Source: Frigoribacterium sp. ACAM 257 (GTDB lineage Bacteria; Actinomycetota; Actinomycetes; Actinomycetales; Microbacteriaceae). From it: DNA of 64,000 nt. The stretch lies in the NCBI RefSeq assembly GCF_007954365.1, contig NZ_VOLO01000001.1:186001-250000 (forward strand), in the 5' to 3' direction. The translations under genes were made by a program, and so were the position numbers. This document shows positions 38,115 through 63,002 of this stretch, in pieces; positions within the stretch are counted from its first letter, which is position 1; each line of letters starts with the position of its first letter. The notes below the pieces were generated by a model. The model worked only from the letters and a program-made list of their open reading frames with translations, was not told where the DNA came from and searched no databases.

Positions 38115-38153
38115 CTCGCCAGTCTCGCACCGCGCCCGCTAGGGTCGGTCTCC

Positions 38154-38612
38154 ATGGCCGCGCGCGATCTGACCCCGTCCGACGACGCCGAGTCCCCTGC
38201 CGGCGAGCACGCCGAGCACGCACAGCCCGACGAGGGCACGGACGGCGCCGAGTCCACGGACGGCGGGTCGCGCGACGCCGAGGGGCTCGCGATCTTCGAC
38301 GACCAGACCCACGACGACTCGGTCGAGCCGGCCCGCAGCTCGCGGCTGGGCGTCGTCGTCCTCGTGCTCGCCGTGCTCCTGCTCGTCCTCGACGGCGTCG
38401 CGATCGCCCTGCTCGCGGCCGACGGCGTCACGGCCGCGGCGTCGATCGCGCTGGTCACGATGCTCGCCTCGATCGGCGTGGGCGTCGTCGCGCTCGTCGC
38501 CGTCGCGACGCGCCGGGGCCGCTGGCCCGCCGTGGCCGCGGTGCTGCTGAGCGTCCTCGCCAACCCGTTCGTGTTCGTCTGGCTGCTGGGCAACCTCGTC
38601 CCCTCGCTCTGA
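38154..38612 (+). CDS. Hypothetical membrane protein
   Basis: 152 residues. An acidic, disordered first half (Glu/Asp/Ser-rich, about 1-60) then three membrane segments: LGVVVLVLAVLLLVLDGVAIALLA, AASIALVTMLASIGVGVVALVAV and AAVLLSVLANPFVFVWLLG. I do not recognise a family. It is placed between menC and menB and starts 8 nt after TAGGGT; the start codon is otherwise without a ribosome binding site. Confidence 0.75.
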   Translation: MAARDLTPSDDAESPAGEHAEHAQPDEGTDGAESTDGGSRDAEGLAIFDDQTHDDSVEPARSSRLGVVVLVLAVLLLVLDGVAIALLAADGVTAAASIALVTMLASIGVGVVALVAVATRRGRWPAVAAVLLSVLANPFVFVWLLGNLVPSL

Positions 38613-38649
38613 CCGTCGGCGACCTGCCTCCGGTCGTAGGCTGGTGGGC

Positions 38650-39558
38650 ATGTCCGCCGCCGTGTCCGACCTGTTCGATCCCGCTGAGTGGCGAGAGGTG
38701 CCGGGCTTCGACGGCCTGACCGACGTCACGTACCACGTCGACGTCGAGGGCCGGGTGGCCCGCGTCGCGATCGACCGGCCCGAGGTGCGCAACGCGTTCC
38801 GCCCGCGCACCGTCGACGAGCTGTACCGCGTGCTCGACCACGCGCGGCAGCAGAGCCGCGTGGGCGTCGTCCTGCTGACCGGCAACGGCCCCAGCCCCAA
38901 GGACGGCGGCTGGGCCTTCTGCAGCGGCGGTGACCAGCGCATCCGCGGCCGTGACGGCTACAAGGCCGAGGGCGCCGAGGCGAACGTGGCCGACCCTGCC
39001 TCGGCGGGGCGCCTCCACATCCTCGAGGTGCAGCGGCTGATCCGGTTCATGCCCAAGGTCGTCATCGCGGTCGTGCCGGGCTGGGCGGCGGGCGGCGGCC
39101 ACTCGCTGCACGTCGTCTGCGACCTCACGATCGCCAGTCGTGAGCACGGCAAGTTCAAGCAGACGGACGCCGACGTCGGCTCGTTCGACGCCGGCTACGG
39201 CAGCGCCTACTTCGCGAGGCAGATCGGCCAGAAGCTCGCCCGCGAGGTCTTCTTCCTCGCCGAGGAGTACAGCGCCGACCGCGCCCACGAGATGGGCGCC
39301 GTCAACCGCGTCGTCGCCCACGGCGATCTCGAGAAGGAGGCGCTCGCCTTGGCCCGCGTCGTCCTCACCAAGTCGCCCACCGCGATCCGCATGCTCAAGT
39401 TCGCGTTCAACGCCACCGACGACGGCATCGTGGGCCAGCAGGTCTTCGCGGGCGAGGCGACCCGCCTCGCGTACGGCACCGACGAGGCCGTCGAGGGGCG
39501 CGACTCGTTCCTCGAGAAGCGCGAGCCCGACTGGTCGCCCTTTCCCTGGCAGTACTGA
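38650..39558 (+). CDS. menB: 1,4-dihydroxy-2-naphthoyl-CoA synthase
   Basis: 302 residues, crotonase fold. It closes the second ring of menaquinone. RPEVRNAFRPRTVDELYRVLDHAR, the oxyanion hole GGDQRIRG and VPGWAAGGGHSLHVVCDLTIAS, catalytic Asp/Tyr region FKQTDADVGSFDAGYGSAYFARQIG and the C-terminal DWSPFPWQY are diagnostic. ATG at 38650 is preferred to the GTG two codons earlier because TAGGCT ends 7 nt before it. Confidence 0.94.
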   Translation: MSAAVSDLFDPAEWREVPGFDGLTDVTYHVDVEGRVARVAIDRPEVRNAFRPRTVDELYRVLDHARQQSRVGVVLLTGNGPSPKDGGWAFCSGGDQRIRGRDGYKAEGAEANVADPASAGRLHILEVQRLIRFMPKVVIAVVPGWAAGGGHSLHVVCDLTIASREHGKFKQTDADVGSFDAGYGSAYFARQIGQKLAREVFFLAEEYSADRAHEMGAVNRVVAHGDLEKEALALARVVLTKSPTAIRMLKFAFNATDDGIVGQQVFAGEATRLAYGTDEAVEGRDSFLEKREPDWSPFPWQY

Positions 39559-39633
39559 CGTGGCAGTGCCGACCCTGGCGCCGCTGACCCTGACGCCGCA
39601 CGCGGCAGGGCACGAGACGAGGAGGCGCGGCGC

Positions 39634-40794
39634 GTGACCCGCCCCCTCCTCCCTGTCGACGCGCGCCGCCCGCTCGACGTGCTCGAGGCCCTCCGCGTCG
39701 CCCTCGCGGGCGGTCCCGCCGTCGCCCCGCGCACGGACGACCACGTCCCCGCCGACCTGCCCGCCACCGTGCCGCAGCCCGTGGCCCTCGTCGTCGAGAC
39801 GAGCGGGTCGAGCGGCGTGCCGAAGCGCGTGATGCTGCCCGCCGACGCCCTGCTGGCCGGGGCGGCCGCGGCCGACGGCGCGCTCAGCGGGCCCGGGCAG
39901 TGGGTGCTGGCGCTGCCGGCGCACTACGTCGCGGGGACGAACGTCCTCGTCCGGAGCATCGCCGCCGGCACCGAGCCCGAGGTCCTGGCCCCCGGGCACT
40001 TCGACCCGACGGCGTTCGCCGAGGCTGCCCGTCGCCTCGAGCACCCCGTCCGCTACGCGTCGCTCGTGCCGGCACAGCTGGCGGCGGTGCTCGACGCCGC
40101 CGCGGGCGACGCCGACGTGGCGGCCGCGGCACGGAGCTTCGCCGCGGTGCTGGTGGGCGGGCAGGCGACTCCCGCCTCCCTCGTCGACCGGGCTCGCGCC
40201 TCCGGCGTGACGGTCGTCCGCACCTACGGCTCGAGCGAGACGAGCGGGGGCTGTGTCTACGGCGGCGTCCCCGTCGGACGCACCAGGGTCGAGGTCGTCG
40301 ACGGTCAGGTCGAGCTCGCCGGGCCGTCGCTCGCGCTCGGCTACCTGGGCGACGAGGCTCGCACGGCGGCGGCCTTCGTGGACCGCGACGGGGAGCGCTG
40401 GTACCGCACCGGCGACGCCGGCACGCTGTCGGTCGAGGGGGTGCTCACGGTGAGCGGCCGGCTCGACGACGTCGTCGTCTCGGGCGGCGAGAAGGTCTCG
40501 CTCGGGCTCGTCGAGCGCGTGGTCCGCGAGCAGCCGGGGCTCGGCGCCGCGGTCGTCGTGCGGGCGCCGCACGACCGGTGGGGCGAGGTGCCGGCGGTCG
40601 TCGTGGGGGAGTCCGGCAGCCTCGACCTGCCCGGCCTGCCCGAGCTGCGTGCGGTCGTCGCCGCAGCCCTCGGCCGCGCTGCCGCGCCCGACCGGCTCGT
40701 CGTCCTCCCCGAGCTGCCCCTCCTCGCGAGCGGCAAGCCCGACCGCCGCGCCCTGGAGGCTCTCGTCGCGGGCGGGGACGCCGCCCGGAACTAG
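39634..40794 (+). CDS. menE: o-Succinylbenzoate-CoA ligase
   Basis: 386 residues, short adenylate-forming enzyme. AMP-binding loop VETSGSSGVPKRVML, adenine motif VRTYGSSETSGGC, YRTGDAG hinge and C-terminal catalytic Lys in LLASGKPDRRAL. GTG at 39634 with AGGAGG upstream (part of an AGGAGGCGCGG motif). The stop TAG overlaps the TAGGAT box of menA. Confidence 0.9.
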   Translation: MTRPLLPVDARRPLDVLEALRVALAGGPAVAPRTDDHVPADLPATVPQPVALVVETSGSSGVPKRVMLPADALLAGAAAADGALSGPGQWVLALPAHYVAGTNVLVRSIAAGTEPEVLAPGHFDPTAFAEAARRLEHPVRYASLVPAQLAAVLDAAAGDADVAAAARSFAAVLVGGQATPASLVDRARASGVTVVRTYGSSETSGGCVYGGVPVGRTRVEVVDGQVELAGPSLALGYLGDEARTAAAFVDRDGERWYRTGDAGTLSVEGVLTVSGRLDDVVVSGGEKVSLGLVERVVREQPGLGAAVVVRAPHDRWGEVPAVVVGESGSLDLPGLPELRAVVAAALGRAAAPDRLVVLPELPLLASGKPDRRALEALVAGGDAARN

Positions 40795-40804
40795 GATCGG
40801 TCGC

Positions 40805-41752
40805 GTGGCACGAGCGACGACATCCCAGAAGAAGAAGCGCGGCGGCCGACCGGGAGGCCGACCGGGCGCCCAGCGCGCCCGCCGCGTCACGCCCGGCGAC
40901 TGGATCGGCGGTGCCCGGCTGCGCACGCTGCCCCTCGGCGTCGCGCCCGTCGCGCTCGGCACCGGCGTCGCCCGGGCGAACGGAAGCTGGGACCTGCCGC
41001 TGGCCCTGCTCTGCCTCGCGATCGCCGTGTTCCTCCAGATCGGCGTCAACTACGCCAACGACTACTCCGACGGCATCCGCGGCACCGACGCGCACCGGGT
41101 CGGGCCGGCGAGGCTGACGGGCTCGGGCAGCGTGCGGCCGAAGACCGTGCTGCGCGTCGCCCTCGTCTTCTTCGGCCTCGCCGCGCTCGCCGGCGTCGTG
41201 GTCGTCGTGACGACCGGCTACTGGTGGATGCTCGCCGTCGGGGCCGCAGCCGTGGTCGCCGCCTGGTACTACACAGGCGGCAAGCGCCCCTACGGCTACA
41301 ACGCCCTCGGCGAGGTCTTCGTCTTCGTGTTCTTCGGGCTGGTCGCGACCGTCGGCACCGCCTTCGTGCAGGTGCACCGGTTCCCCGCCGACGCGTGGGT
41401 CGCGGGGATCGCGGCCGGGCTGTTCGCCTGCGCCGTGCTCATGGTCAACAACATCCGTGACATCCCGCAAGACGCGGCGGCCGGCAAGCGCACCCTCGCG
41501 GTCGTCGTCGGCGACACGGTGGCGCGGGCCCTCTACGCGCTCTTCCTGCTGCTGCCGTTCCTGCTGTTGGTGTACTTCGGCTTCCTGTACTTCAACGCGC
41601 CGTACGTCTACTTCACGTTGATCACGGCCGTGCCCGCAGCCGTCATCGGCGTGACCGGCAAGACGCCGCGCGAGCTGATCCTCGCGCTGCAGCTGTCGTC
41701 GCTCACGGCGCTGCTGTTCGGCCTCGGCCTCGGGGCCGCGCTCTTCTTCTGA
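40805..41752 (+). CDS. menA: 1,4-dihydroxy-2-naphthoate polyprenyltransferase
   Basis: 315 residues, UbiA superfamily, eight or nine membrane segments after a basic 30-residue N-terminus. Prenyl-diphosphate motifs NYANDYSDGIRGTD and NNIRDIPQDAAAGKRT are visible. Attaches the polyprenyl tail made by the synthase near 49 kb. GTG at 40805 follows TAGGAT by 7 nt; that box overlaps the menE stop codon. Confidence 0.93.
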   Translation: MARATTSQKKKRGGRPGGRPGAQRARRVTPGDWIGGARLRTLPLGVAPVALGTGVARANGSWDLPLALLCLAIAVFLQIGVNYANDYSDGIRGTDAHRVGPARLTGSGSVRPKTVLRVALVFFGLAALAGVVVVVTTGYWWMLAVGAAAVVAAWYYTGGKRPYGYNALGEVFVFVFFGLVATVGTAFVQVHRFPADAWVAGIAAGLFACAVLMVNNIRDIPQDAAAGKRTLAVVVGDTVARALYALFLLLPFLLLVYFGFLYFNAPYVYFTLITAVPAAVIGVTGKTPRELILALQLSSLTALLFGLGLGAALFF

Positions 41753-41755
41753 CCG

Positions 41756-41880
41756 GGAGGCGCGTCCCGCGTCCTGCCTGGGAGGCGCGTCCCGCGTCGT
41801 GTCCAGGAGGCGCGTCCCGCGTCGTGTCCAGGAGGCGCGTCCCGCGTCGTGTCTAGGAGGCGCGTCCCGCGTCGTGCCCG
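41756..41880. repeat. Five tandem 25-bp units
   Basis: Five contiguous 25-bp copies, each starting GGAGGCGCGTCCCGCGTC; units 2-4 are nearly identical. The array starts 4 bp after the menA stop and runs into the 3' end of the convergent DUF4229 gene, whose stop codon lies in unit 4. Confidence 0.92.
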
Positions 41881-42185
41881 TCGCGAGCAGCGTCGGCCTG
41901 GTGGGCGTCCCGAGCGGCGTCGTCCTCACGGGCGTCGCGCTCGGCCAGCTCGGCGTCCTCGGCGAGGCTGTCGCCGTCGAGCGGTTCCGGCTTGGAGCGC
42001 CGTTCGGCGAGCTCGAGCGCGACCTGCCGACGCAGCGGAGCGAAGAAGAGGTACGAGACGCAGAACGCGACCACGGCGGCGATGAGCGTCGCGAGGTACG
42101 GGTTCGGCAGCAGGAGCACGAGCACGACCAGCGCGACCAGGAACACGCCGAGGCGCACGATCGAGTACTTGACCCAGGGTTTCAC
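41853..42185 (-). CDS. DUF4229 family membrane protein
   Basis: 110 residues. Two membrane segments: VKYSIVRLGVFLVALVVLVLLL and LATLIAAVVAFCVSYLFFA, followed by a basic stretch (LRRQVALELAERRSK) and an Asp/Ala/Glu-rich tail. This size and layout fit the actinobacterial DUF4229 family, which often sits in menaquinone loci. GTG start with TAGACT 6 nt upstream. The C-terminal ten residues are encoded by the 25-bp tandem repeat, so the end may vary between strains. Confidence 0.78.
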   Translation of the reverse strand: MKPWVKYSIVRLGVFLVALVVLVLLLPNPYLATLIAAVVAFCVSYLFFAPLRRQVALELAERRSKPEPLDGDSLAEDAELAERDAREDDAARDAHQADAARDGHDAGRAS

Positions 42186-42296
42186 GCGGCGAGTCTACGC
42201 GCGCCCCCTGCGCCTCCCCGCACGCGTGGCGAGCTGCGGACGGGGCTCCCTGCCGACCATCAGGCGACGTCCTGCCGGCCCGCCTATGCTCGGTCC

Positions 42297-42671
42297 ATGG
42301 TGAAGTTCTTGGTCGTGGCGATCGTCGCAGCGTCAGCGTTCGTCATCTATGCCCTGATCGACTGCCTCTTCGCCGAGTCGTCCAAGTTCCGGGCGCTCAA
42401 CAAGCCCATCTGGGCCCTCGTCATCGTGCTGCTGCCCGTCATCGGTGCCGTGCTCTGGTTCCTCCTGGGCCGGGCGCGCAAGTCGGGTCAGTCCGAGTCG
42501 CGCCGCTTCGTCGCTCCCGATGACGACCCCGAGTTCTCGGGTCGTTCGAGCTCGACCGTCAGCGACCTCGACCGCGAGACGACCGACGAGCGCATCCGCC
42601 GTCTCGAAGAAGAGCTGGCACAGCTCGACGGCGACGACAAGAACGACACGAACGACAAGAACAACGCCTGA
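42297..42671 (+). CDS. PLD nuclease N-terminal domain (PLDc_N) membrane protein
   Basis: 124 residues. Two membrane segments with the PLDc_N pattern: ALIDCLFAESSKFRALNKPIWALVIVLLPVIGAVLWFLLGR. Residues 70-124 are a charged cytoplasmic tail with a coiled-coil-like TTDERIRRLEEELAQLD and a terminal Asp/Lys/Asn repeat. No phospholipase domain follows. TATGCT ends 6 nt before the ATG. It immediately precedes menD. Confidence 0.85.
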   Translation: MVKFLVVAIVAASAFVIYALIDCLFAESSKFRALNKPIWALVIVLLPVIGAVLWFLLGRARKSGQSESRRFVAPDDDPEFSGRSSSTVSDLDRETTDERIRRLEEELAQLDGDDKNDTNDKNNA

Positions 42672-42681
42672 GGCCGACGGC

Positions 42682-44505
42682 GTGGTGCTTCACGGGGGCG
42701 ACCGCCCCGACGCGGCCGAGTCCGAGCTGCCTGAGGGTGCAGACCGTGCCGCAGGCGTCCCGTCCACGACCTCGGCCAGCCTCGCCAGCGACTACGCCGT
42801 CGCGCTGCTCGCCGGCCTGGTCGACGCCGGGGTGCGCGAGCTCGTCCTCAGTCCCGGCTCGCGGTCGCAGGCGATCGCCCTCGCCGCCGCCGAGTTCGAG
42901 CGCGCCGGTCGGCTGCGCCTCCGCGTGCGGATCGACGAGCGCTCCGCAGGCTTCCTCGCTCTCGGCCTGGCGGTCGAGTCCGGTGTCCCTGCCGTCGTCG
43001 TCACCACCTCCGGCACCGCGGTCGCCAACCTGCACCCTGCGGTGCTCGAGGCCCACCACTCCGGCGTCCCGATGATCGTGCTGACGGCCGATCGTCCCGT
43101 CGAGCTCCGGGGCACAGGCGCGAACCAGACCACGCAGCAGCCCGGCGTCTTCGGCGTGGCCGTCCGGATCGGACACGACCTCGAGGCCCCGCGCGCAGGC
43201 GCCGTCGACTCCGGGGCGGTCCGCACGGTCGCGCGTGCCGCCGTCGCGACGGCGCTCGGCGCCCCGGACGCCGACCGGGCCCCCGGCGCCCCGTCCGTCC
43301 CGGGTCCGGTGCACCTCAACGTCGCGTTCCGCGAGCCGTTGTCGGCTGCTCTCGACGCGCTTCCCGCAGCCCGTCCCGAGCCGGTCGAGGTCGCCTCCTG
43401 GTCGCAGGCGGCCCGTGCCGGTGCCGTCCGCGTCGAGGTCGACGTCGAGCCGGCCACGGTCGTCGTCGCCGGCCACGGCGCCGGACCCGAGGCCGAGTCG
43501 CTGGCCCGCGGCCTCGGCGCGCCGCTCGTGGCGGAGGTCTCCAGCGGGTCCCACTTCGGGCCGAACCTCGCGCTCGGGTTCCGCACGCTGCTCGGCGAGC
43601 CCGAGCTCGGCGGTGCCGTGCGCCGGGTCGTGGTGCTGGGGCACCCGACACTGACCCGCCAGGTCCCTGCCCTGCTCACGCGACCGGGCGTCGAGGTCGT
43701 CGTCGTGCGCGGGGCCGCCGCCGACGCCTACGACCCTGGCCGATCGGCCACGGTCGTCGACGCCGTCGACGTGGTCGACACCGCAGGAGGCGCGCCCGAC
43801 GACCGCGCCCACCGCGCCTGGGTGGGCCGCTGGGTCCACGCCGGACGCCGGGTCGTCGGCGACGACGAGGCCGCGCCCGACCTCGAGGCGGCGACCAGCG
43901 ACGACGGCTCGGCCCGGGCGCAGTTCCTCCGGGGCGAGGTCGCTCTGCTGCGCCGCTCGGTGACCCGACGTGCCCTGGCCGAGACGCTGTGGCGCGTGAC
44001 GTGGCCCCACGACCGGCTGGTCCTCGGCGCCTCCCGCCTCATCCGCGAGGTCGACGAGGTCGTGCCGGGCAAGAAGATCCGCGTCCACGCCAACCGCGGC
44101 CTCGCCGGCATCGACGGCACGATCGCGACGGCCGCCGGCATCGCCCTCGCGAGCCAGGTCGACGACGGCGCCCCCGGCGTCACCCGGGTCCTCGTCGGCG
44201 ACCTGACCCTGCTGCACGACGTCGGCTCGCTCTTGTTCGGCGAGGGCGAGGTGCGGCCGCGGCTGCAGGTCGTCGTCGGCAATGACGGGGGCGGCACCAT
44301 CTTCGACGGACTCGAGGTCGCGGCCACGGCTCCCGTCGACGCGATGCGCCGGGTGCAGTTCACGCCGCACTCGGTCCAGCTCGCCGGGCTCGCGACGGCG
44401 TACGGCTGGCACCACGTGCTCGCCTCGACGCGTGCCGAGCTCGACCAGGCGCTCGCCAGGGCCTGGGACGGTCCCGTGCTGGTCGAGGTGCCGCTCGCCC
44501 GCTGA
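42682..44505 (+). CDS. menD: 2-succinyl-5-enolpyruvyl-6-hydroxy-3-cyclohexene-1-carboxylate synthase
   Basis: 607 residues, ThDP-dependent enzyme that commits isochorismate to menaquinone. The N-terminal core ELVLSPGSRSQAIALAAAEFE, RIDERSAGFLALGLA (catalytic Glu), TTSGTAVANLHPAVLEA and LTADRPVELRGTGANQTTQQ are clear; the ThDP/Mg block near the C-terminus is GDLTLLHDVGSLL, then VVGNDGGGTIF. GTG at 42682 (or the adjacent 42685) is the only start near the family N-terminus and gives a 35-residue acidic extension; it is 10 bp after the PLDc_N stop. Confidence 0.93.
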   Translation: MVLHGGDRPDAAESELPEGADRAAGVPSTTSASLASDYAVALLAGLVDAGVRELVLSPGSRSQAIALAAAEFERAGRLRLRVRIDERSAGFLALGLAVESGVPAVVVTTSGTAVANLHPAVLEAHHSGVPMIVLTADRPVELRGTGANQTTQQPGVFGVAVRIGHDLEAPRAGAVDSGAVRTVARAAVATALGAPDADRAPGAPSVPGPVHLNVAFREPLSAALDALPAARPEPVEVASWSQAARAGAVRVEVDVEPATVVVAGHGAGPEAESLARGLGAPLVAEVSSGSHFGPNLALGFRTLLGEPELGGAVRRVVVLGHPTLTRQVPALLTRPGVEVVVVRGAAADAYDPGRSATVVDAVDVVDTAGGAPDDRAHRAWVGRWVHAGRRVVGDDEAAPDLEAATSDDGSARAQFLRGEVALLRRSVTRRALAETLWRVTWPHDRLVLGASRLIREVDEVVPGKKIRVHANRGLAGIDGTIATAAGIALASQVDDGAPGVTRVLVGDLTLLHDVGSLLFGEGEVRPRLQVVVGNDGGGTIFDGLEVAATAPVDAMRRVQFTPHSVQLAGLATAYGWHHVLASTRAELDQALARAWDGPVLVEVPLAR

Positions 44506-44543
44506 CCACGCGGCGGAACGCCCCCGGCCGTAGGCTCGGAGGC

Positions 44544-45395
44544 ATGGCCAAGACCTGGACGACCCAGCCGACCGAGATCCTCCGTGCCGGCCCCGACCTG
44601 AGCCTCGCCGAGGTCGACCCTGCCTCGACGCCCGGCTTCCCCGGCGACAAGCGCTACGCCGCGCAGGTCCTCGAGTCGGGCCGCGACACGCTCGGCGAGC
44701 TGCAGGAGAAGCTCTTCGCCGGCAGCCGCACCGGAGGGTCGCAGGGGAACGTCCTGCTCGTCCTCCAGGGCACCGACACCGCGGGCAAGGGCGGCATCGT
44801 GCGGCACGTCGTCGGTGCGGTCGACCCGCAGGGCGTCGCGCACCACGCCTTCAAGGCGCCCACCGAAGAAGAGCTGGCACACGACTTCCTCTGGCGCGTC
44901 CGTCGCGAGCTGCCGGGGCCGGGCATGATCGGGGTCTTCGACCGCTCTCACTACGAGGACGTCCTGATCGGCAAGGTCCGACGGCTCGCTCCGCCCGAGG
45001 AGATCGAGCGCCGCTACGAGGCGATCGTCGAGTTCGAGCGCGAGCTCGCCGACGCCGGCACGACGATCGTCAAGGTGATGCTCCACCTGTCCCGCGACGA
45101 GCAGAAGGCACGCCTGACGGAGCGTCTCGACCGGCCCGACAAGCACTGGAAGTTCAACCCCGGCGACATCGAGGAACGCCTGGTGTGGGACGACTACCAG
45201 GACGCCTACGAGACCGCCGTCCGTCGCACGTCGACCGATGCGGCGCCGTGGTTCGTGGTGCCGGCCGATCGCAAGTGGTACGCCCGCGTGGCCGTCCAGC
45301 GCCTGCTCGTCGACGCCCTCGAGGCTCGGGGTCTCGACTGGCCGGCCGCCGACTTCGACGTCGAGCTCGAGCGGACGCGCCTGGCCTCGACCTAG
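44544..45395 (+). CDS. ppk2: PPK2 family polyphosphate kinase
   Basis: 283 residues, single PPK2 domain. Walker A is QGTDTAGKGGIVRHVVG, Walker B region GMIGVFDRSHYEDVLIGKV, and lid residues around RLDRPDKHWKFNPGD. It moves phosphate between polyphosphate and (deoxy)nucleoside mono- or diphosphates; class not certain, but the length and the ERLVWDDYQDAYE segment suit single-domain enzymes. TAGGCT ends 7 nt before the ATG. Its stop overlaps the convergent MFS stop by 3 bp. Confidence 0.9.
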   Translation: MAKTWTTQPTEILRAGPDLSLAEVDPASTPGFPGDKRYAAQVLESGRDTLGELQEKLFAGSRTGGSQGNVLLVLQGTDTAGKGGIVRHVVGAVDPQGVAHHAFKAPTEEELAHDFLWRVRRELPGPGMIGVFDRSHYEDVLIGKVRRLAPPEEIERRYEAIVEFERELADAGTTIVKVMLHLSRDEQKARLTERLDRPDKHWKFNPGDIEERLVWDDYQDAYETAVRRTSTDAAPWFVVPADRKWYARVAVQRLLVDALEARGLDWPAADFDVELERTRLAST

Positions 45396-46879
45396 GCGCG
45401 CCTCCGCAGAGAGTCGCCCGCGCCCCTCGGCAGCCGCAGCCCCTCCGGCAGGCTCAGCAGCGCCAGGGCAGCGAGCACGACGAGCGCGACCTGGTAGCCG
45501 GTGGCCGCGCCTCCGACGCCCTCGGCCGTGGCGACCGTGTCCGCGACCCGCACGGTGAGCGCGGTCAGCGCGACGCCGAGGCCGACGGCGAGCTGTCCCG
45601 TGATGGAGGCGATGGCGTTCGCCGGGGCGATCTGGGCGGCGGGCACGTCGGCGAACTGCAGGGTGTTGTAGGCCGTGAACCCCACCGAGCGGAACACGCC
45701 GCTGACGAGCAGGATCGCCGCCACGAGCACCGGCGACGTCCCCGGCCCCACGAGCGCCGCGGCGACGAAGGTCGCGGCCAGCCCGACCGTGGCGACGACG
45801 ATGATGGGCACGATCCGGAACCTGTGCATCAGGGGAGTCGTGAACGGCTTCACGCCGAGGTTGCCGACGAAGACCCACATCAGCATCAGGCCGGCCTCGA
45901 CGGGCGACCAGCCGAGGCCGTCCTGCAGCAGCAGGGGCACGACGAAGGGCACCCCGTTGACGACGGCCCGGTAGAGCGAGCCGCTGAGGTTCGTGACCCT
46001 GAACGTCGCGACGCGGAAGGGCTCGAGGTCGAGGAGGGGGTGCCTGGCTCGACGGAACCACCGGCCGGCCGCGAGCCCCAGGGCCAGCGCCACGACGGCG
46101 AGGAGAACCCCGAACAGCACCGTGGCCTTGTCTCCCAGCAGCTCGAAGGCGACGACGAGGGCCACGATCGCGCCGACGACGAGCAGCAGCCCCGGCCAGT
46201 CGAGCGGGTGCCGGTCGCCGACCTCGGGCGACGGCACGACCCGCCACGCCGCGACGAGCAGCAGCGCGCCGATCGGCACGTTGACCAGGAACACCCACTC
46301 CCAGCCCAGGTGCTCGGTGAGCAGGCCGCCGATCAGCGGCGCCACGACGGGCGCCGCGAGGGCCGGCCAGGTCAGGTAGGCGATGGCCTTGATCAGCTCG
46401 GACTTCTCGGTGCTGCGCAGCACGATGAGGCGGCCGATCGGCACCATCATCGCGCCCGCGGCCCCCTGGACGACCCGCGCCGTCGTGAGCGCGACGAGAT
46501 CGGGGCTGAGCGCGCACGCGAGCGACGCGAGCGTGAACAGCACCACGGCCGCGAGGAACACCCGCCGCGCACCCCAGCGCTCGGCGAGCCAGGCACCCAG
46601 CGGGATGAACGCCGCCACCGCGACCAGGTAGCCGGTGACGGCGATCCCGAGCTGGGCCGGCTGCACCCCGAAGTCGCGAGCGACGGAGGCGGTGGCCGTC
46701 GACAGGATCGTGGCGTCGAGGTTCTCCATGAAGAACGCCGCGGCGACCACCAGCGCCACCGGGCGCGACCAGCGCGGCGCGGCCGCCGCCTCCTCGGCTC
46801 CGGCCTGCCCGTCGACGGCGTTCGCCTCGTCGGGCTGCTCGGACCCGGCCCCTGGCCCGGACGCCGGTCTCGACGTCAC
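45392..46879 (-). CDS. MFS drug exporter, DHA2/EmrB-like
   Basis: 495 residues, about 14 membrane segments after a 40-residue disordered N-terminus. Motif ENLDATILSTATASVARDFGV in TM1, GAWLAERWGARRVFLAAV in loop 2-3 and the motif C region LAAPVVAPLIGGLLTEHLGWEWVFLVNVPIG in TM5-6 mark drug:H+ antiporters. GTG at 46879 overlaps the menF stop (GTGA), an unexpected coupling of an exporter to menaquinone synthesis. Substrate unknown. Confidence 0.87.
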   Translation of the reverse strand: MTSRPASGPGAGSEQPDEANAVDGQAGAEEAAAAPRWSRPVALVVAAAFFMENLDATILSTATASVARDFGVQPAQLGIAVTGYLVAVAAFIPLGAWLAERWGARRVFLAAVVLFTLASLACALSPDLVALTTARVVQGAAGAMMVPIGRLIVLRSTEKSELIKAIAYLTWPALAAPVVAPLIGGLLTEHLGWEWVFLVNVPIGALLLVAAWRVVPSPEVGDRHPLDWPGLLLVVGAIVALVVAFELLGDKATVLFGVLLAVVALALGLAAGRWFRRARHPLLDLEPFRVATFRVTNLSGSLYRAVVNGVPFVVPLLLQDGLGWSPVEAGLMLMWVFVGNLGVKPFTTPLMHRFRIVPIIVVATVGLAATFVAAALVGPGTSPVLVAAILLVSGVFRSVGFTAYNTLQFADVPAAQIAPANAIASITGQLAVGLGVALTALTVRVADTVATAEGVGGAATGYQVALVVLAALALLSLPEGLRLPRGAGDSLRRRA

Positions 46880-48108
46880 AGCGAGAACGCGCCGACGACG
46901 GGCTGGAACTTCATCGTCGTCTCGGCGACCTCGCGCTCGGGGACCGACTCGGCGACGACGCCGGCGCCGGCGAAGGCCCTGACGGTGCCGTCCGCGTGCA
47001 CCTGGGCGCAGCGGAGCGCGATCGCCCACTCGCCGTCGCCGTCGGCGCCCACCCAGCCGACCGGCCCGGCGTAGCGTCCGCGGTCGAAGGGCTCCAGGCG
47101 CCGGATCAGCTCCAGCGCCCGCGGCGTCGGGGTGCCGGCCACGGCGGCGGTCGGGTGCAGCGCGGCGATCAGGTCGAGCGACGACGACCCGTCCGTCAGC
47201 CGCCCGCGCACGTCGCTGGCGAGGTGCCACAGGTTCGGGAGCTTCAGCGTGAACGGCTGCTCGCCGGTCACGACGTCGTCGGCGTGCGGGCCGAGGGAGA
47301 GGAGCAGGCTGCGGAGGGCGAAGGCGTGCTCGTCGAGGTCCTTGGTCGAGGTCGCGAGGGCGTGGGCGGCCTGCTCGTCGGTCACCGCGTCGACGCCGCG
47401 GGCGCTGCTGCCCGCGAGCACCCGCGCGCTCACCTCGCCCCGCTCGGTCCGGACGAGGGTCTCGGGGCTGGCCCCGACCAGCCCGTCCACGGCGAAGGCG
47501 TAGCAGTCGGGGTAGGCCGTGAGGAGGGTCGCGGCCACGAGTCGCAGGTCGGCCTCGGCCGGCAGCCGGCCGACGAGGTCGCGCGCGAGCACGACCTTGC
47601 TCACCTCGCCGTGTCGGATCGCCTGGACTGCCTGCGCGACGGCGGCGCCGTAGCCCGGCCCGGACAGCTCGCCGTCGACGAGCCGGAGCTTCGCGGAGGC
47701 GCCCACGGGCGACGCCGGGGGCAGCTCGGCACCGTCGACCCGCGTGATCCAGGCGACGCCGTCCCGTCGGCCGAGCACGATGCTCGGCACGATCAGGACG
47801 CTCGTGTCGGCCGACTCGTCGTCGAAGGCGAAGGAGCCGAAGGCCATCAGGCCCGTGCCCGGCACGCCCACCTCGTCGACGACGGAGGCGCGGCTCGCGA
47901 CCGCACGCCAGGCGTCGGCTGCGTCGCGCATCCGGTCGGGCCCGGTGAACTCGAGGCGCAGCGCCTCGCCGATGCCGGCCATGCCCGCACCGCCCCGCAC
48001 GAAGATCAACGGGCTGCGCGGGTCGACGACGTCGAGCAGCGGGCTGATGTGGTCGATCTGCGTGGTGCGGACGGACAAGGCAGGAACGTGCAGCGACGGG
48101 AGGACCAC
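46876..48108 (-). CDS. menF: Isochorismate synthase
   Basis: 410 residues, chorismate-binding fold. GEVSKVVLARDLVG, PDCYAFAVDGLVGASPETLVRTERGEVSARVLAGSSARG, HLASDVRGRL, LHPTAAVAGTP and GRYAGPVGWVGADGDGEWAIALRCAQV are all present with Lys and Glu catalytic positions. First committed step of menaquinone (or of siderophore) synthesis; the men genes around it favour the former. GTG start, TAGGGT ends 6 nt upstream. Confidence 0.92.
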   Translation of the reverse strand: MVLPSLHVPALSVRTTQIDHISPLLDVVDPRSPLIFVRGGAGMAGIGEALRLEFTGPDRMRDAADAWRAVASRASVVDEVGVPGTGLMAFGSFAFDDESADTSVLIVPSIVLGRRDGVAWITRVDGAELPPASPVGASAKLRLVDGELSGPGYGAAVAQAVQAIRHGEVSKVVLARDLVGRLPAEADLRLVAATLLTAYPDCYAFAVDGLVGASPETLVRTERGEVSARVLAGSSARGVDAVTDEQAAHALATSTKDLDEHAFALRSLLLSLGPHADDVVTGEQPFTLKLPNLWHLASDVRGRLTDGSSSLDLIAALHPTAAVAGTPTPRALELIRRLEPFDRGRYAGPVGWVGADGDGEWAIALRCAQVHADGTVRAFAGAGVVAESVPEREVAETTMKFQPVVGAFSL

Positions 48109-48160
48109 GTCTCGACCCTACTCGGGCCACGCACGGGGCATGCCGGTAGGATCGACCATC

Positions 48161-48892
48161 GTGACCAAGGCCGACATGAACAAGCAACCTGACGAGGTCG
48201 CGTCGATGTTCGACGGCGTCGCCCGCCACTACGACCGCACGAACGACGTGCTCTCCGCGGGCAACGCCGTCCTCTGGCGCGTCGCCACCGTCAAGGCGAT
48301 CGGTGCGGGCCCGGCCGACCGGGTCCTCGACATCGCCGCCGGCACGGGGACGAGCTCGGCGGCGATCGCGGCCCGCGGCGCCGAGGTGGTCGCGCTCGAC
48401 TTCTCGCACGGCATGGTCGAGGTCGGCCGTGAGCGCCACCCCGAGATCGAGTTCGTCGAGGGCGACGCCGAGCAGCTGCCCTTCGACGACGCCAGCTTCG
48501 ACGCCGTCACCATCTCGTTCGGCCTGCGCAACGTCAACCGGCCGAAGCAGGCGCTCGCCGAGATGTACCGGGTACTCAAGCCCGGTGGCCGGCTCGTCGT
48601 CTGCGAGTTCTCGACGCCGCCGTTCGGCCCCCTGCGCGCCGCCTACGGCACCTACCTGCGGCACGTCATGCCGGTCGTCGCCCGGGCCGTGAGCAGCAAC
48701 ACGCCCGCGTACTCGTACCTCGCCGACTCGATCGACGCGTGGCCCGAGCAGCAGGTGCTGAGCCAGTGGCTGCGCGGCGCGGGGTTCACCCGGGTGGCGC
48801 ACCGCAACCTGACGCTGGGCATCGTCGCCCTGCACCGGGGCCGCAAGCCGGCCGACCCGTCGACCCGCGCCTCCGCGGCGAAGAAGAAGTAG
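48161..48892 (+). CDS. menG: Demethylmenaquinone methyltransferase
   Basis: 243 residues, UbiE/MenG family. MFDGVARHYDRTNDVLSAGNAVLWR, SAM loop VLDIAAGTGTSSAAIA, FGLRNVNRPKQALAEMYRVLKPGGRLVVCEFSTP and SYLADSIDAWPEQQVL. Final methylation of menaquinone. GTG with TAGGAT ending 8 nt upstream; divergent from menF, so the two share a 52-bp promoter region. Confidence 0.93.
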   Translation: MTKADMNKQPDEVASMFDGVARHYDRTNDVLSAGNAVLWRVATVKAIGAGPADRVLDIAAGTGTSSAAIAARGAEVVALDFSHGMVEVGRERHPEIEFVEGDAEQLPFDDASFDAVTISFGLRNVNRPKQALAEMYRVLKPGGRLVVCEFSTPPFGPLRAAYGTYLRHVMPVVARAVSSNTPAYSYLADSIDAWPEQQVLSQWLRGAGFTRVAHRNLTLGIVALHRGRKPADPSTRASAAKKK

Positions 48893-48937
48893 CCGCCGCC
48901 CCCGGGCGGTCGACCAGACCAGACGAAGGTGACCCCT

Positions 48938-50029
48938 GTGAACCCGAGTGTGCCGCTCACCCGCCGCAGCAGCTCCCTGAGCTCGTCGCTCGGCCTCGGC
49001 GAGAAGCTCTTCGCCTCGCCCGCCGACCGGCGCTTCGTGCAGTCGGTCGACGACGGCCTCGAGCTCGTCGAGCAGGGCCTGCTCCGCGAGATCGCGTTCG
49101 CCGACGAGATCGCCGACGCGACGACGCGCTACCTGCTCGCCGCCGGCGGCAAGCGCGTGCGCCCGACGCTGACCCTCCTCATCGCCCAGCTCGGCGACGG
49201 GGCGACCCCGGGGATCGTCGCGTCGGCGCAGGCCACCGAGATCACGCACCTGGCGTCGCTCTACCACGACGACGTCATGGACGAGGCGCAGATGCGCCGT
49301 GGCGTCCCCAGCGCCCAGACGGTGTGGGGCAACAACGTGGCGATCCTCGCCGGCGACCTGCTCTTCGCCCGGGCCAGCACCATCGTGTCGGGCCTCGGGC
49401 AAGAGGCGATCCTGCTGCAGGCCGAGACCTTCGAGCGCCTGTGCCTCGGCCAGCTGCACGAGACCATCGGGCCGCGCGAGGGCGACGACCCGATCGCGCA
49501 CTACATCGACGTGCTCGGCGACAAGACGGGCTCGCTCATCTCGACCGCCGCCCGTGCGGGCGTCATGTTCTCGGGCGCGCCCCGCGAGTACCTCGCCCCC
49601 GTCGCCGAGTTCGGCGAGAAGATCGGCATCGCGTTCCAGCTGATCGACGACGTCATCGACCTCTCCGACCAGGCCGAGGAGACGGGCAAGCGCGCCGGCA
49701 CCGACCTGCGCGCGGGCGTCGTGACGCTGCCGCTCCTCTACCTCCGCCAGGAGGCGCAGACCGACATGGAGGCGGCGGCCCTGCTGGGCCTCATCGACCA
49801 GGTCGTCGACGCCACCCGCGCGGCAGACGACGGCACGGACCCGGTGGACGAGGCGGAGTTCGCCGAGATCGTCCGTCAGCTCCGTGAGCACGAAGTCACC
49901 GACCGCACGCGCCGCGAGGCGCACCGGTGGGCGTCGGAGGCGCTGGCCGCCCTCGAGGCACTGCCGGCGGGCCCCGTCAAGAAGGCCCTCACCCGCTTCG
50001 CCGACCGCGTGGTCGAGCGCTCCGCCTGA
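48938..50029 (+). CDS. Trans-polyprenyl diphosphate synthase
   Basis: 363 residues. Makes the long isoprenoid tail used by MenA. First Asp-rich motif LYHDDVMDEAQMRRG, second QLIDDVIDLSDQAEETGK; GGKRVRPTLTLL binds isopentenyl diphosphate. Chain length cannot be fixed from sequence alone. GTG at 48938 has GAAGG eight bases upstream and is preferred to the GTG three codons before it. Follows menG by 45 bp, probably one operon. Confidence 0.9.
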   Translation: MNPSVPLTRRSSSLSSSLGLGEKLFASPADRRFVQSVDDGLELVEQGLLREIAFADEIADATTRYLLAAGGKRVRPTLTLLIAQLGDGATPGIVASAQATEITHLASLYHDDVMDEAQMRRGVPSAQTVWGNNVAILAGDLLFARASTIVSGLGQEAILLQAETFERLCLGQLHETIGPREGDDPIAHYIDVLGDKTGSLISTAARAGVMFSGAPREYLAPVAEFGEKIGIAFQLIDDVIDLSDQAEETGKRAGTDLRAGVVTLPLLYLRQEAQTDMEAAALLGLIDQVVDATRAADDGTDPVDEAEFAEIVRQLREHEVTDRTRREAHRWASEALAALEALPAGPVKKALTRFADRVVERSA

Positions 50030-58624: not shown

Positions 58625-58696
<72 letters not shown>

Positions 58697-58732
58697 CCGG
58701 CTGGTCACGGTCACACCGTGCAGACAGCTTGC

Positions 58733-58806
58733 GGCGGGGTAGCTCAGTTGGTTAGAGCACACGGCTCATAATCGTGGTGTCGCGGGTTCGAGTCCCGCCC
58801 TCGCTA
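58733..58806 (+). tRNA. tRNA-Met (CAT), elongator type
   Basis: Acceptor GGCGGGG pairs with CCTCGCT using two G-U pairs; D-arm TAGCTCAGTTGGTTAGAGCA; anticodon loop CTCATAA gives CAT; T-arm GCGGGTTCGAGTCCCGC. It lacks the initiator-specific GGG/CCC anticodon stem, so it is the elongator or, less likely, a tRNA-Ile2. Confidence 0.92.
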
Positions 58807-58812
58807 CCGCAA

Positions 58813-58843: not shown

Positions 58844-58927
58844 ACTGTGTTTCCTGGAGCGGTTCCGCTGCTCGCCGACGCGGCCCTTCCTGATCGCGGC
58901 GACCCGGCCGTCGCATACGCTCAGGGG

Positions 58928-60145
58928 ATGTCCCCGAGCATCCACAGCATCGGCACCGCCGTCCCGTCGACGATCATCGGGCAGGACCACATCCGTGACG
59001 TGTTCCGCAGCCAGCCGGGGCTCGGCCGCCTCGCCCCCCGCCTGATCGGGGCGGTGTTCGACGGCGCCCAGATCGCCACCCGCCACACGGTGATCGACGA
59101 GCTGGGGTCCGAGCAGACCGAGCACGCCGGACAGACGCGCGAGGGCGCCGAGCAGCCCGGGGGCGCCGACTCCGCACCCATCCCGGTGTTCTTCGACCGG
59201 GCCGGGGGCCGGATCCTCCGCCCCGGCACCGGGGCCCGCAACGACGTCTACGTCCAGCGCAGCCCCGACCTCTTCGTCCGGGCGGCCGAGGAGGCGCTGG
59301 CCGGCGCCCCGGGGATCACCGCAGCAGACGTCACCCACGTCGTCACCGTGTCGTGCACCGGCTTCTTCGCGCCCGGGCCCGACTACCTGCTCGTGCGCCG
59401 CCTCGGGCTCGCGCCCTCGACCCGCCGCCTGCACATCGGCTTCATGGGCTGCTACGGCGCCTTCCCCGCCTTGCGGGCCGCCCGCGACACCTGCCTGGCC
59501 GAGCCCGACGCGGTCGTGCTCGTCGTCTGCGCCGAGCTCTGCACCCTGCACCTGCGGAGCTCGGACGACCCCGACGCGATCGTCGCCTCCTCCGTCTTCG
59601 CGGACGGTGCCGCCGCCGCCGTCGTGTCGTCGCGACCAGCCGCGAGCAGGTCGCCGGTGCTCGACCTCGACGTGCTCGAGACCGTGCTCACGCCCGTCGG
59701 CGCGGACGACATGGCCTGGAGCATCGGCGACCAGGGCTTCGACATGGTGCTGAGCAGCTACGTGCCGCACATCGTCGAGGAGCACGTCGACTCCGCGCTG
59801 GCACCGCTGCTCGAAGCCGGCGGCGTCACCGTCGCGGACGTCGACGACTGGGCCGTGCACCCGGGGGGCCGCAGCATCCTCGACCGGGTCGAGTCGCAGG
59901 TCGGCCTCAGCGAGGCGCAGCTGGCGCCGTCGCGCAGGGTGCTGCGCGACTACGGCAACATGTCGAGCGCGACGGTGCTGTTCATCCTCCGGGAGCACCT
60001 CGAGGGCCGCAGGGTCGAGGGTCGAGGAGGCGAGGGCGCGGACGACGCGCCCGTCACCTCGGCCGCACGGCGGGTCTGCGCGATGGCCTTCGGGCCGGGC
60101 CTCACCGTCGAGAGCGCGCTGCTCACCCGCCGGGTCGGCGCCTGA
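58928..60145 (+). CDS. Type III polyketide synthase
   Basis: 405 residues, chalcone/stilbene synthase fold. The catalytic Cys143 is in VVTVSCTGFFAPGPDYLLV, the His in WAVHPGGRSILDRVE and the Asn in YGNMSSATVLFILRE: the complete triad. RILRPGTGARND is also typical of bacterial enzymes. Starter and product unknown; bacterial relatives make alkylresorcinols, alkylpyrones or tetrahydroxynaphthalene. TACGCT ends 6 nt before the ATG. It leads a tight operon with a methyltransferase and a flavin monooxygenase. Confidence 0.93.
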   Translation: MSPSIHSIGTAVPSTIIGQDHIRDVFRSQPGLGRLAPRLIGAVFDGAQIATRHTVIDELGSEQTEHAGQTREGAEQPGGADSAPIPVFFDRAGGRILRPGTGARNDVYVQRSPDLFVRAAEEALAGAPGITAADVTHVVTVSCTGFFAPGPDYLLVRRLGLAPSTRRLHIGFMGCYGAFPALRAARDTCLAEPDAVVLVVCAELCTLHLRSSDDPDAIVASSVFADGAAAAVVSSRPAASRSPVLDLDVLETVLTPVGADDMAWSIGDQGFDMVLSSYVPHIVEEHVDSALAPLLEAGGVTVADVDDWAVHPGGRSILDRVESQVGLSEAQLAPSRRVLRDYGNMSSATVLFILREHLEGRRVEGRGGEGADDAPVTSAARRVCAMAFGPGLTVESALLTRRVGA

Positions 60146-60147
60146 GC

Positions 60148-60912
60148 GTGGTCCTCTCCGAGGTGCAGCCGTCGCGGGACCCGCGTGGTCCCGTCGTCGA
60201 CGTGGCGAGGCGCGAGGTCGGGCTCCGCGAGCTGATGGACGACCCCGACTGCGACCTCGGCCAGCTGAGGCGCACCTACGCCGTCTTCCCCGTCGTCAAC
60301 GGCCTCGTCGCCGGCTGGCGGCGGGCGTACCGCGAGAGGATCCGTCCGCTCCTGTCCGCGGATCGGTCGACGACCCTGCTCGACCTCGGATCGGGCGGCG
60401 GGGACCTCGCGCGGTCGCTCGCCCGGTGGGCCCGCCGCGACGGGCTGCGCCTGGCGGTGACGGCCGTCGACCCCGACCGTCGGGCCCACGACTTCGCGAG
60501 CGCCCGACCAGCCGTCGGCGTCGTCCACCGGTGCGCGTCGAGCGGCGACCTCGTCGACGCGGGCGAGCAGTTCGACGTCGTCGTCTCGAACCACGTGCTG
60601 CACCACCTCGACGACTCGTCCAGGGCTGCAGTCCTGTCCGACAGCCGCGCGCTCGCCCGGCGGCTCGTGCTGCACAGCGACATCCGGCGGTCGCGGGCCG
60701 CCTACGCCGGGTACTGGGTCGGGACGCTGCCGCTGGCGCGCACCTCCTTCGTCCGGGTGGACGGGCTGCGCTCGATCCGCCGCAGCTGGACCGACGCGGA
60801 GCTGGCCCGCGAGCTGCCCGTCGGCTGGACGGCGGTCCGCCGGCCGCCCTTCCGCGTCTGGGCCGTGCTCGACCTCGCCGCGGGCGCCGCGGACCCTGGG
60901 CCGCGCTCGTGA
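60148..60912 (+). CDS. Class I SAM-dependent methyltransferase
   Basis: 254 residues. SAM loop TLLDLGSGGGDLARSLARWA (about 73-92), acidic ribose residue VTAVDPD and post-loop FDVVVSNHVLHHLDD. A 70-residue N-terminal extension contains RELMDDPDCDLGQLRRTYAVF, a pattern common in methyltransferases of this type of cluster. GTG starts 3 bp after the PKS stop; it probably methylates the polyketide or a hydroxyl made by the next enzyme. Confidence 0.87.
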   Translation: MVLSEVQPSRDPRGPVVDVARREVGLRELMDDPDCDLGQLRRTYAVFPVVNGLVAGWRRAYRERIRPLLSADRSTTLLDLGSGGGDLARSLARWARRDGLRLAVTAVDPDRRAHDFASARPAVGVVHRCASSGDLVDAGEQFDVVVSNHVLHHLDDSSRAAVLSDSRALARRLVLHSDIRRSRAAYAGYWVGTLPLARTSFVRVDGLRSIRRSWTDAELARELPVGWTAVRRPPFRVWAVLDLAAGAADPGPRS

Positions 60913-62102
60913 TCACGCACGACGTCGTCGTCGTCGGCGGGGGGCCGGTCGGCGTGCTGGCCGCCGCCCTGCTCGCCGCTCGTGGCCTCGACGTCCCCGT
61001 CTGGGAGCGTCGCGCCGAGGAGCCGAGCCTGTCCCGCGCCATCGGCGTGCACCCGCCGTCCCTGGACGTGCTCGACCGGGTCGGCGCGGCCAAGCCGCTC
61101 GTCGCCGATGCGGTGCCCGTGCGTCGCGGCGTCGCGCGCAGCGGCGGGCGCACCCTCGGCACGGTCGACTTCGACCGGGCACATCCCCGCTGGCCGTTCG
61201 TCGCCGCCCTGCCGCAGCACCGCACCGAGCAGCTGCTGCGCCAGCGGCTCGAGTCGCTCGCACCGGGCTCGCTGCGGCGGGGCGTCTCGCTGGACGCCCT
61301 CGAGCAGGAGCCCGAACGCGTCCTGCTCCACGGGACGGCCGAGGGGCGGACGGTGGAGGCGGCAGCCCGCTTCGTCATCGCGGCCGACGGTGCGCGCAGC
61401 TCGCTGCGCGGCGCCCTCGGGATCGACGCGCCCCTGAGGCGCTACCCCGATCGCTACGTGATGTGCGACGTCGCGGACGACACCGGTCTCGGCGCCGACG
61501 CCGTGGTGCACCTGGAGCGTCGGGGCGTCGTCGAGTCGTTCCCCCTGCCGGGCGGGGTGCGCCGCTTCGTGGTCCTGCTCGACGCGGACGGCGACGACGA
61601 CGGCGACGTCGGCGTGGTGCAGGATCGCGACGCCGCACCCGACGCCGAGCTGGTCGCGAGCCTCGTCGCCGAGCGCACCGGCCTCGACCTCGACCCCGGC
61701 ACGGCGACCATGACGAGTGCGTTCGGCGTGCAGCGGCGGCTGGCCCGGCGCACCGTCGCCGGACGGGTCGTCCTGATCGGCGACGCCGCCCACGAGATCA
61801 GCCCGATCGGCGGCCAGGGGATGAACCTCGGCTGGCTGGACGCGGCCGCCGTCGCACCCGTCCTCGCCCGGGCGCTCCGCGCCGCAGGAGGCCGACGCCT
61901 CGACCCGGCCGCCTTCCGGGCCTACGAGGAGGCGCGTCGCCGGTCGGTCGTCCGCTCGGCGCGCCAGGCGGAGATCAACATGGCCCTCGGCCGTCCCGTC
62001 GGGACCGTCGTCGGTGCAGCTCGGCAGGTCGGCCTGTCGGCGGCCCTCCACCTGCCGACCCGCCGCCTCCTCGCCTCGCTCTACTCGATGCGCTTCGTCT
62101 GA
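60909..62102 (+). CDS. FAD-dependent aromatic monooxygenase (PHBH fold)
   Basis: 397 residues. FAD motif HDVVVVGGGPVGVLAAALLAARG, the DG motif in FVIAADGARSSLRGALGI and the GD motif in GRVVLIGDAAHEISPIGGQGMNLGWLDA are intact. Such enzymes hydroxylate phenols; here the PKS product is the likely substrate, giving a quinol or quinone. GTG overlaps the methyltransferase stop (GTGA). Confidence 0.91.
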   Translation: MITHDVVVVGGGPVGVLAAALLAARGLDVPVWERRAEEPSLSRAIGVHPPSLDVLDRVGAAKPLVADAVPVRRGVARSGGRTLGTVDFDRAHPRWPFVAALPQHRTEQLLRQRLESLAPGSLRRGVSLDALEQEPERVLLHGTAEGRTVEAAARFVIAADGARSSLRGALGIDAPLRRYPDRYVMCDVADDTGLGADAVVHLERRGVVESFPLPGGVRRFVVLLDADGDDDGDVGVVQDRDAAPDAELVASLVAERTGLDLDPGTATMTSAFGVQRRLARRTVAGRVVLIGDAAHEISPIGGQGMNLGWLDAAAVAPVLARALRAAGGRRLDPAAFRAYEEARRRSVVRSARQAEINMALGRPVGTVVGAARQVGLSAALHLPTRRLLASLYSMRFV

Positions 62103-62138
62103 CCGACACACCTCGCCCGCCAGGTAGGTCCGTGCAGA

Positions 62139-63002
62139 TCAGGCGACGAGGGCCGTGCCCGCGAGGGCGAGCGACACGACGAGCACGAGTGCAGCGGCGA
62201 TGACCAGCCGGAACAGCCCTCGCGTGGCCGCGCCCCGACGCACGAGCCTCGCCCCGACGACGGACAGCACGAGGGCGGCTGCCGCCCCGACGAGACCCGC
62301 GCCCGTGCGGACGGGCGTCAGGGACCCGTCGAGGAGGAGCCCACCGGCCGTCACGACCGCCGCCGTCCCCAGGGCGGCGAAGGCCACGAGCCCCGCGCGC
62401 AGGCGTCCGAGGCGGTGGGGGAGCCCGACGACGCCGGTCCGGGCGTCGTCCTCGAGGTCGGGCAGCACGTTGGTGAAGTGGATCGCGACGCCGAAGGCCG
62501 CGCCCACGACCAGGGCCCAGGCCGCAGGTGCAGCCGGCGGCGCGTCGGCGAGGGTGACCACGGCGGGCAGGGCCCCGAAGCCGAGGAGGAACGGCACGGC
62601 CGACCAGGCCGTGCGCTTGAGCCCGAGGTTGTAGGCCCAGCCGGCGGCGAGGAAGACGAGGTGGGCGATGCCGGCGGCCCAGCCGAGGACGAAGGTCAGG
62701 CCGATCGCGAGGACGGTGACGACGCTGACAGCGACGACCGCGGCGGCCGTCGAGACGAGGCCGAGGGCGAGGGGCTTGTCGCGGCGCCCGACCTGACGAT
62801 CGCGTGCCGCGTCGACGAGGTCGTTGGAGAGCCCGATCGACAGCTGGCCGGCCAGCACGGCGGCGCCGAGAAGCAGGGTGCGACCGACCCCGAGGCCGAC
62901 CGCCGTCGCGAGGACGACCGAGAGCACCGTCACCGCGACGGTAGGGCCGGGGTGCGTGGACCGGGCCAAGGCCGCGATCGTGGAGACGCGCGAGGCCGTC
63001 AC
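62139..63002 (-). CDS. UbiA family prenyltransferase
   Basis: 287 residues, eight or nine membrane segments. First Asp motif LSNDLVDAARDRQVGRRDKPLALG and second FTNVLPDLEDDARTG bind Mg and prenyl diphosphate. It is distinct from menA (40805), shorter, and faces the PKS operon 36 bp away. It may prenylate the polyketide-derived phenol, or act in another quinone or lipid route. GTG start. Confidence 0.87.
   Translation of the reverse strand: MTASRVSTIAALARSTHPGPTVAVTVLSVVLATAVGLGVGRTLLLGAAVLAGQLSIGLSNDLVDAARDRQVGRRDKPLALGLVSTAAAVVAVSVVTVLAIGLTFVLGWAAGIAHLVFLAAGWAYNLGLKRTAWSAVPFLLGFGALPAVVTLADAPPAAPAAWALVVGAAFGVAIHFTNVLPDLEDDARTGVVGLPHRLGRLRAGLVAFAALGTAAVVTAGGLLLDGSLTPVRTGAGLVGAAAALVLSVVGARLVRRGAATRGLFRLVIAAALVLVVSLALAGTALVA

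Follow-up and report, generated by a model that had tools for sequence, protein, structure and literature searches.

A Microbacteriaceae Type III Polyketide Synthase Locus With a UbiA Prenyltransferase, a Probable Source of a Prenylated Aromatic Polyketide

Introduction

Several described gene clusters combine a type III polyketide synthase (PKS) with tailoring enzymes that modify its product. The agqABCD cluster of Actinoplanes missouriensis yields alkyl-O-dihydrogeranyl-methoxyhydroquinones, as summarized in later papers (Awakawa 2011, via PMC10896814 and PMC7093587), and orthologs of agqA–D have been assigned in Phytohabitans (PMC7692728). In the los cluster of Micromonospora endolithica, genes for a UbiA protein, a methyltransferase, an acyl-CoA dehydrogenase and the losA PKS lie together, and the loseolamycins reported from heterologous expression are alkylresorcinols (PMC7587189). 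The srs and pkq genes make quinones with three genes, and in mycobacteria and Streptomyces polyketide quinones take part in respiration (PMC9927152).

The locus described here lies in the window, which is the whole 64,000-nucleotide stretch of Frigoribacterium sp. ACAM 257 that was analyzed. It encodes a type III PKS, a methyltransferase, a flavin-dependent monooxygenase and a UbiA-family prenyltransferase (Table 1), and it probably specifies a pathway of the agq/los kind leading to a prenylated aromatic polyketide.

Organization of the Locus

The PKS, methyltransferase and monooxygenase genes form a tight three-gene operon. Two bases separate the PKS stop codon from the GTG of the methyltransferase gene (60148), which overlaps the monooxygenase gene (GTG 60909) by four bases. 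The UbiA gene is convergent with this operon, with 36 bases between its end and the monooxygenase stop codon on the opposite strand. An earlier note on this DNA had described a compact operon facing a UbiA gene tail to tail, and both parts of that description hold at the place it gave; its PKS start (58916) lies 12 bases upstream of the ATG at 58928, which matches the N-termini of relatives in an alignment. Each of the four reading frames in the window is open and intact, and the Pfam scores of their products are well above the gathering cut-offs. The layout is not a matter of chance, because the same gene order is found in many further Microbacteriaceae genomes. A promoter and terminator scan of the locus, which is uninformative at this G+C content, gave no signal.

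A pair of tRNA genes lies directly upstream of the operon. The idea of a recent island at this pair is unsupported, since the flanking genes are common to genomes of the same genus and to one other genus. Elsewhere, the window carries an FMN riboswitch and a non-discriminating aspartate--tRNA(Asn) ligase gene.

Table 1. Positions of the locus and of other features in the window
Feature	Position	Strand	Details
Type III PKS, "PKS-A" type	58928..60145	+	405 aa, ATG; Pfam Chal_sti_synt_N/C, triad, W264, PKS tree
Class I SAM-dependent methyltransferase	60148..60912	+	254 aa, GTG; NCBIfam NF004851 (PRK06202)
Flavin-dependent aromatic monooxygenase	60909..62102	+	397 aa, GTG; FAD_binding_3 (PF01494)
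UbiA-family membrane prenyltransferase	62139..63002	-	287 aa; Pfam UbiA, Asp motifs, AlphaFold2 model
tRNA-Thr and tRNA-Met pair	58625-58808	+	
Menaquinone set (MenC-, MenB-, MenE-, MenA-, MenD-, MenF-like and polyprenyl synthase)	37098-50026		
MenA	40805-41752		Passes own curated cut-off
FMN riboswitch	13667-13805	+	Rfam RF00050, 84.6 bits
Non-discriminating aspartate--tRNA(Asn) ligase	30456-31790	-	Above two curated NCBIfam cut-offs

The PKS, Methyltransferase and Monooxygenase

The PKS triad (Cys175-His311-Asn344) is invariant among aligned relatives, and Trp264 occupies the position of Gly256 of CHS, which we take to be equivalent to Trp281 of ArsB. Trp281 of ArsB favors a resorcinol product, and Gly284 of ArsC a pyrone (PMC6274091). 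By its likeness to ArsB, Trp264 suggests a resorcinol ring in the window product, but this residue alone does not settle the ring type, because the pyrone-forming PKS11 shares a Trp at the aligned position. Assignment of the window PKS as DpgA was rejected (NF042429, 151 bits against a cut-off of 425).

The methyltransferase scores 309.7 bits against NF004851 (PRK06202; cut-off 243), a family of unknown function, and also matches Pfam Methyltransf_23, Methyltransf_25 and Methyltransf_11. These matches place it in class I, as the earlier note had proposed in calling it a soluble enzyme of this class rather than one of the srs type. The monooxygenase matches FAD_binding_3 with 170 bits, and profile and homology searches return polyketide, phenol and ubiquinone hydroxylases as its relatives. 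Judged by profile scores, the monooxygenase and the methyltransferase are only distantly like the Ubi hydroxylases and UbiG.

The UbiA Protein and Its Paralogues

The window UbiA scores 84 bits against Pfam UbiA (cut-off 34.2). Its Asp motifs, ND..D..RD and PD...D, were already thought to be intact; they are, and they are invariant in 11 relatives. The AlphaFold2 model (pLDDT 88.6) has the UbiA fold, and a structure search pairs it with UbiA homologues from archaea and with digeranylgeranylglyceryl phosphate synthase. UbiA-family genes number four in this genome, namely CtaB (heme O synthase), MenA, a PRK13105-type prenyltransferase and the window UbiA, so that the earlier mention of a second UbiA besides MenA was right about an extra gene but understated the number.

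UbiA genes are functionally diverse, and this one stands alone in some genomes, as would suit an enzyme of another, known pathway (that of menaquinone, heme O, carotenoids or decaprenylphosphoryl-arabinose) that came to lie beside the operon by accident. Such an origin is most improbable: CtaB, MenA and the PRK13105-type protein are present and each passes its own curated cut-off, whereas the window UbiA exceeds no named NCBIfam cut-off and falls far under every named family (42.5 against 269 bits at best). Decaprenyl-phosphate phosphoribosyltransferase, the assignment that had been singled out as fatal to a joint pathway, was rejected at 22.6 bits against a cut-off of 474. MenA, CtaB and carotenoid-type enzymes were likewise rejected, the scores being too low and separate genes passing those models.

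The menaquinone set of the window lies about 9–22 kb upstream of the PKS operon, and the genome has three polyprenyl synthases. A genome search for a prenyl-tail reductase gave no TIGR02032 match above the cut-off; therefore, a saturated (dihydrogeranyl) tail like that of agq is not predicted from the TIGR02032 family.

Distribution Within the Microbacteriaceae

Two PKS types were distinguished among 150 genomes of the family: type A, that of the window (at least 54% identity), and the distant type B (mostly about 30–40%). Type A occurs in 53 genomes and type B in 59, which gives 112 of 150 with any type III PKS and 38 with none. The methyltransferase accompanies type A in 53/53 genomes and the monooxygenase in 43/53. 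UbiA is found in 57 of the 59 type-B genomes, 23 of the 53 type-A genomes and 4 of the 38 without a PKS (Fisher p 2.8e-11, uncorrected for relatedness). Within type A, it occurs in 23/43 genomes with the monooxygenase and in 0/10 without it (p 0.0029, relatedness ignored). The genome sets for these tests were compiled by hand from search lists, and type-B neighborhoods were read for a subset of genomes. Since UbiA is absent from 20 of the 43 type-A genomes that have the monooxygenase, it would not be needed for the core pathway, and prenylation appears to be optional in the family.

Most UbiA-bearing type-A genomes, from many genera, have UbiA convergent beside the monooxygenase; two (G050 and G120) have it on the PKS side instead. 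In four genomes of two genera (G031/G105 and G045/G116), the PKS and methyltransferase genes are at one locus and the monooxygenase and UbiA genes are paired at another. This split is probably one event, because the UbiA proteins of all four form one clade in the tree. Many type-B genomes of the family have a lone UbiA gene, away from any PKS. Such genes were suspected of belonging to the menaquinone region, an idea given up because their neighbors (a trehalase-like gene, an MFS transporter gene and others) are unrelated. In the small-genome members G030 and G104, genes for PKS, ICMT, FAD oxidoreductase and UbiA are consecutive on one strand (L065 6944-10369 and L067 2793-6222).

Linkage Across the Actinomycetes

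Among 345 sampled genomes of the class Actinomycetes, a type III PKS occurs in 194 and a UbiA of the window subfamily in 180, where automatic annotation leaves it unnamed. The present locus offers a candidate function for it and raises the claim that window-type UbiA prenylates the ring of a type III PKS. Among the matches listed, UbiA and PKS genes lie at most 3.5 kb apart in 51 of the 83 genomes having both, and the linkage spans at least 17 families; the chance expectation for such closeness in a genome of several million bases is about one in a thousand. Conserved co-occurrence, which the earlier note had looked to a neighborhood comparison to reveal, is thus present, and the absence of UbiA beside the PKS in relatives, which it had set against its proposal, is not what many relatives have. 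The joint pathway of four genes is well supported by this linkage and co-occurrence.

Two further arrangements recur. In variant B, UbiA is divergent from an srs-like PKS-ICMT-FAD oxidoreductase operon; in variant C, which is agq/los-like, it is divergent from a class I methyltransferase, an acyl-CoA-dehydrogenase-like flavoprotein and a PKS. Gene calling on the loci and the UbiA tree thus place the same UbiA lineage with three different ring-making sets. A geranylgeranyl-reductase-family gene is often beside UbiA in variant B. The copies next to UbiA in several clusters across the class (L156 4056-5186, L185 6972-8153, L263 7770-8909) are candidates for the enzyme that saturates the prenyl tail. 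A named-genome scan with a variant-C UbiA returned 80 loci, mostly of Micromonosporaceae, and 60 of these have the PKS, acyl-CoA-dehydrogenase-like (ACAD) and methyltransferase genes with divergent UbiA. Several agq-type loci of Pseudonocardiaceae have no called ACAD-like gene and a FAD_binding_3 monooxygenase nearby, which fits both flavoenzymes doing the same job. One family of tiny-genome actinobacteria has a divergent UbiA of the window subfamily, mostly without any PKS. For instance, UbiA has no adjoining PKS in L288 and L285, and in L288 it is next to a MutM/Fpg-like gene.

These distributions also bear on whether UbiA belongs with the operon at all. The three genes might by themselves make a product without a prenyl group (a phenolic lipid or a polyketide quinone), like srsABC and pkqABC, with UbiA an independent neighbor that serves another acceptor. 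Three genes suffice for quinones in srs and pkq (PMC9927152), UbiA is dispensed with in nearly half of the type-A genomes that have the monooxygenase, and it stands away from the PKS in many type-B genomes. This is nevertheless unlikely, given that the linkage extends over 17 or more families and three distinct PKS sets, that even a lone UbiA still accompanies a PKS (57/59 type-B genomes) and that UbiA tracks the monooxygenase.

Descent of UbiA and the PKS

UbiA and PKS trees were built by quick searches. In the UbiA tree, a branch with support 100 separates the window-family UbiA from most other B- and C-associated UbiA. The type-A-paired UbiA form one group with two lone genes (support 97), and the named Microbacteriaceae member Diaminobutyricibacter tongyongensis (L273) falls inside the clade of window-family UbiA. 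The PKS tree joins types A and C as sister groups (support 100), sets type B apart and nests the UbiA-less type-A lines within UbiA-bearing ones. Read most simply, the trees would mean that UbiA was handed down by descent, that one ring-making gene set was substituted for another around it, and that some type-A lines lost UbiA afterwards; inheritance of UbiA would be largely vertical.

If most members of a large bacterial family make a compound, an occasional antibiotic is a less likely identity for it than a membrane lipid or quinone with a physiological role. It has also been considered that the tail is a long polyprenyl chain and that the product serves alongside menaquinone as another respiratory quinone, an analogue of ubiquinone with a ring of polyketide origin. 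The breadth of the PKS in the family (112/150) and the largely vertical UbiA suit a physiological role, the monooxygenase and methyltransferase bear their distant likeness to Ubi hydroxylases and UbiG, and polyketide quinones have respiratory functions in mycobacteria and Streptomyces (PMC9927152). Yet the dihydrogeranyl group of the agq product, as summarized in the papers cited above, is short; many genomes lack UbiA, the locus has no linked quinone oxidoreductase, and menaquinone genes are present in the window. A respiratory quinone of this kind is very unlikely. A broader proposal is that a single UbiA lineage, inherited vertically across the Actinomycetes while three PKS tailoring sets were swapped around a constant prenyl step, points to a widely distributed prenyl-polyketide of the membrane, which might even be a non-shikimate respiratory quinone; this is speculative and doubtful.

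A Proposed Pathway

In the favored scheme, which leads to a prenylated product, the type III PKS would condense an acyl-CoA starter with malonyl-CoA and close a ring, presumably of the resorcinol type. The flavin monooxygenase would then hydroxylate this ring to the hydroquinone level and the class I methyltransferase would methylate it, at a site and step that the scheme only proposes. The membrane UbiA would attach to the ring an isoprenoid of provisional length, taken from a prenyl diphosphate. This step is placed after hydroxylation because the type-A genomes that lack the monooxygenase all lack UbiA too; the site of prenylation is likewise provisional. The scheme would end with a prenylated (methoxy)hydroquinone or quinone bound to the membrane. 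Linkage of UbiA to the monooxygenase, co-occurrence with the PKS, dependence on the monooxygenase and the shared UbiA lineage count for this pathway. The position of UbiA on the opposite strand, the 20/43 genomes without it and the tiny genomes that have UbiA mostly without a PKS count against it. A literature search found no product for any type-A cluster.

Comparison With Known Systems

Both srsABC of Streptomyces griseus and pkqABC of Mycobacterium smegmatis share the order PKS, methyltransferase, FAD oxidoreductase with the window operon, and the earlier note had taken srsABC as its model. The gene order is indeed alike, but agqABCD and los, both with a UbiA gene, are the better precedent. 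The srs methyltransferase is an ICMT-type membrane enzyme, as found in type-B operons, whereas that of the window is class I; the srs-like PKS, represented by the ICMT-linked type B, are on a branch distant from type A (support 100; srsA itself is not in the tree); and the described srs operon has no UbiA, although srs-like operons beside UbiA are common. The hidABC operon of cyanobacteria and a planctomycete operon also unite a PKS, a methyltransferase and an oxidoreductase, with an alkylresorcinol product, but they belong to other phyla, differ in gene order and have no UbiA reported in the operon (PMC10896814).

The comparison with agq was made through the loci of Phytohabitans flavus and P. 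suffuscus (L225 and L240), A. missouriensis not being among the loci compared. These two show the agq arrangement and were equated with the published agqA–D orthologs by chromosome position, not by locus tags. Over the aligned part only, the window UbiA shares 44–46% identity with its Phytohabitans counterparts, and it matches them at 1e-34 (L225) and 1e-27 (L240), whereas its own-genome paralogues do not match. As in agq, a type III PKS, a class I methyltransferase, a flavoenzyme and a UbiA of the same subfamily share one cluster, and the PKS of the window (type A) and of agq-type loci (type C) are sister groups. The agq-type flavoenzyme is Acyl-CoA_dh-like whereas that of the window is a FAD_binding_3 protein, the window methyltransferase is from another subfamily, and UbiA is divergent from the operon in agq-type loci and convergent here. 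The los cluster likewise has UbiA, methyltransferase and PKS genes with a flavoenzyme, again of the acyl-CoA dehydrogenase class rather than FAD_binding_3. The closest known system is thus agqABCD/los, with its prenylated alkylresorcinol hydroquinones, and not srsABC. By gene content and homology, the window locus appears as a Microbacteriaceae variant of agq/los with a different flavoenzyme and methyltransferase, a variant that shows non-homologous flavoenzymes and methyltransferases swapped around a constant prenyltransferase.
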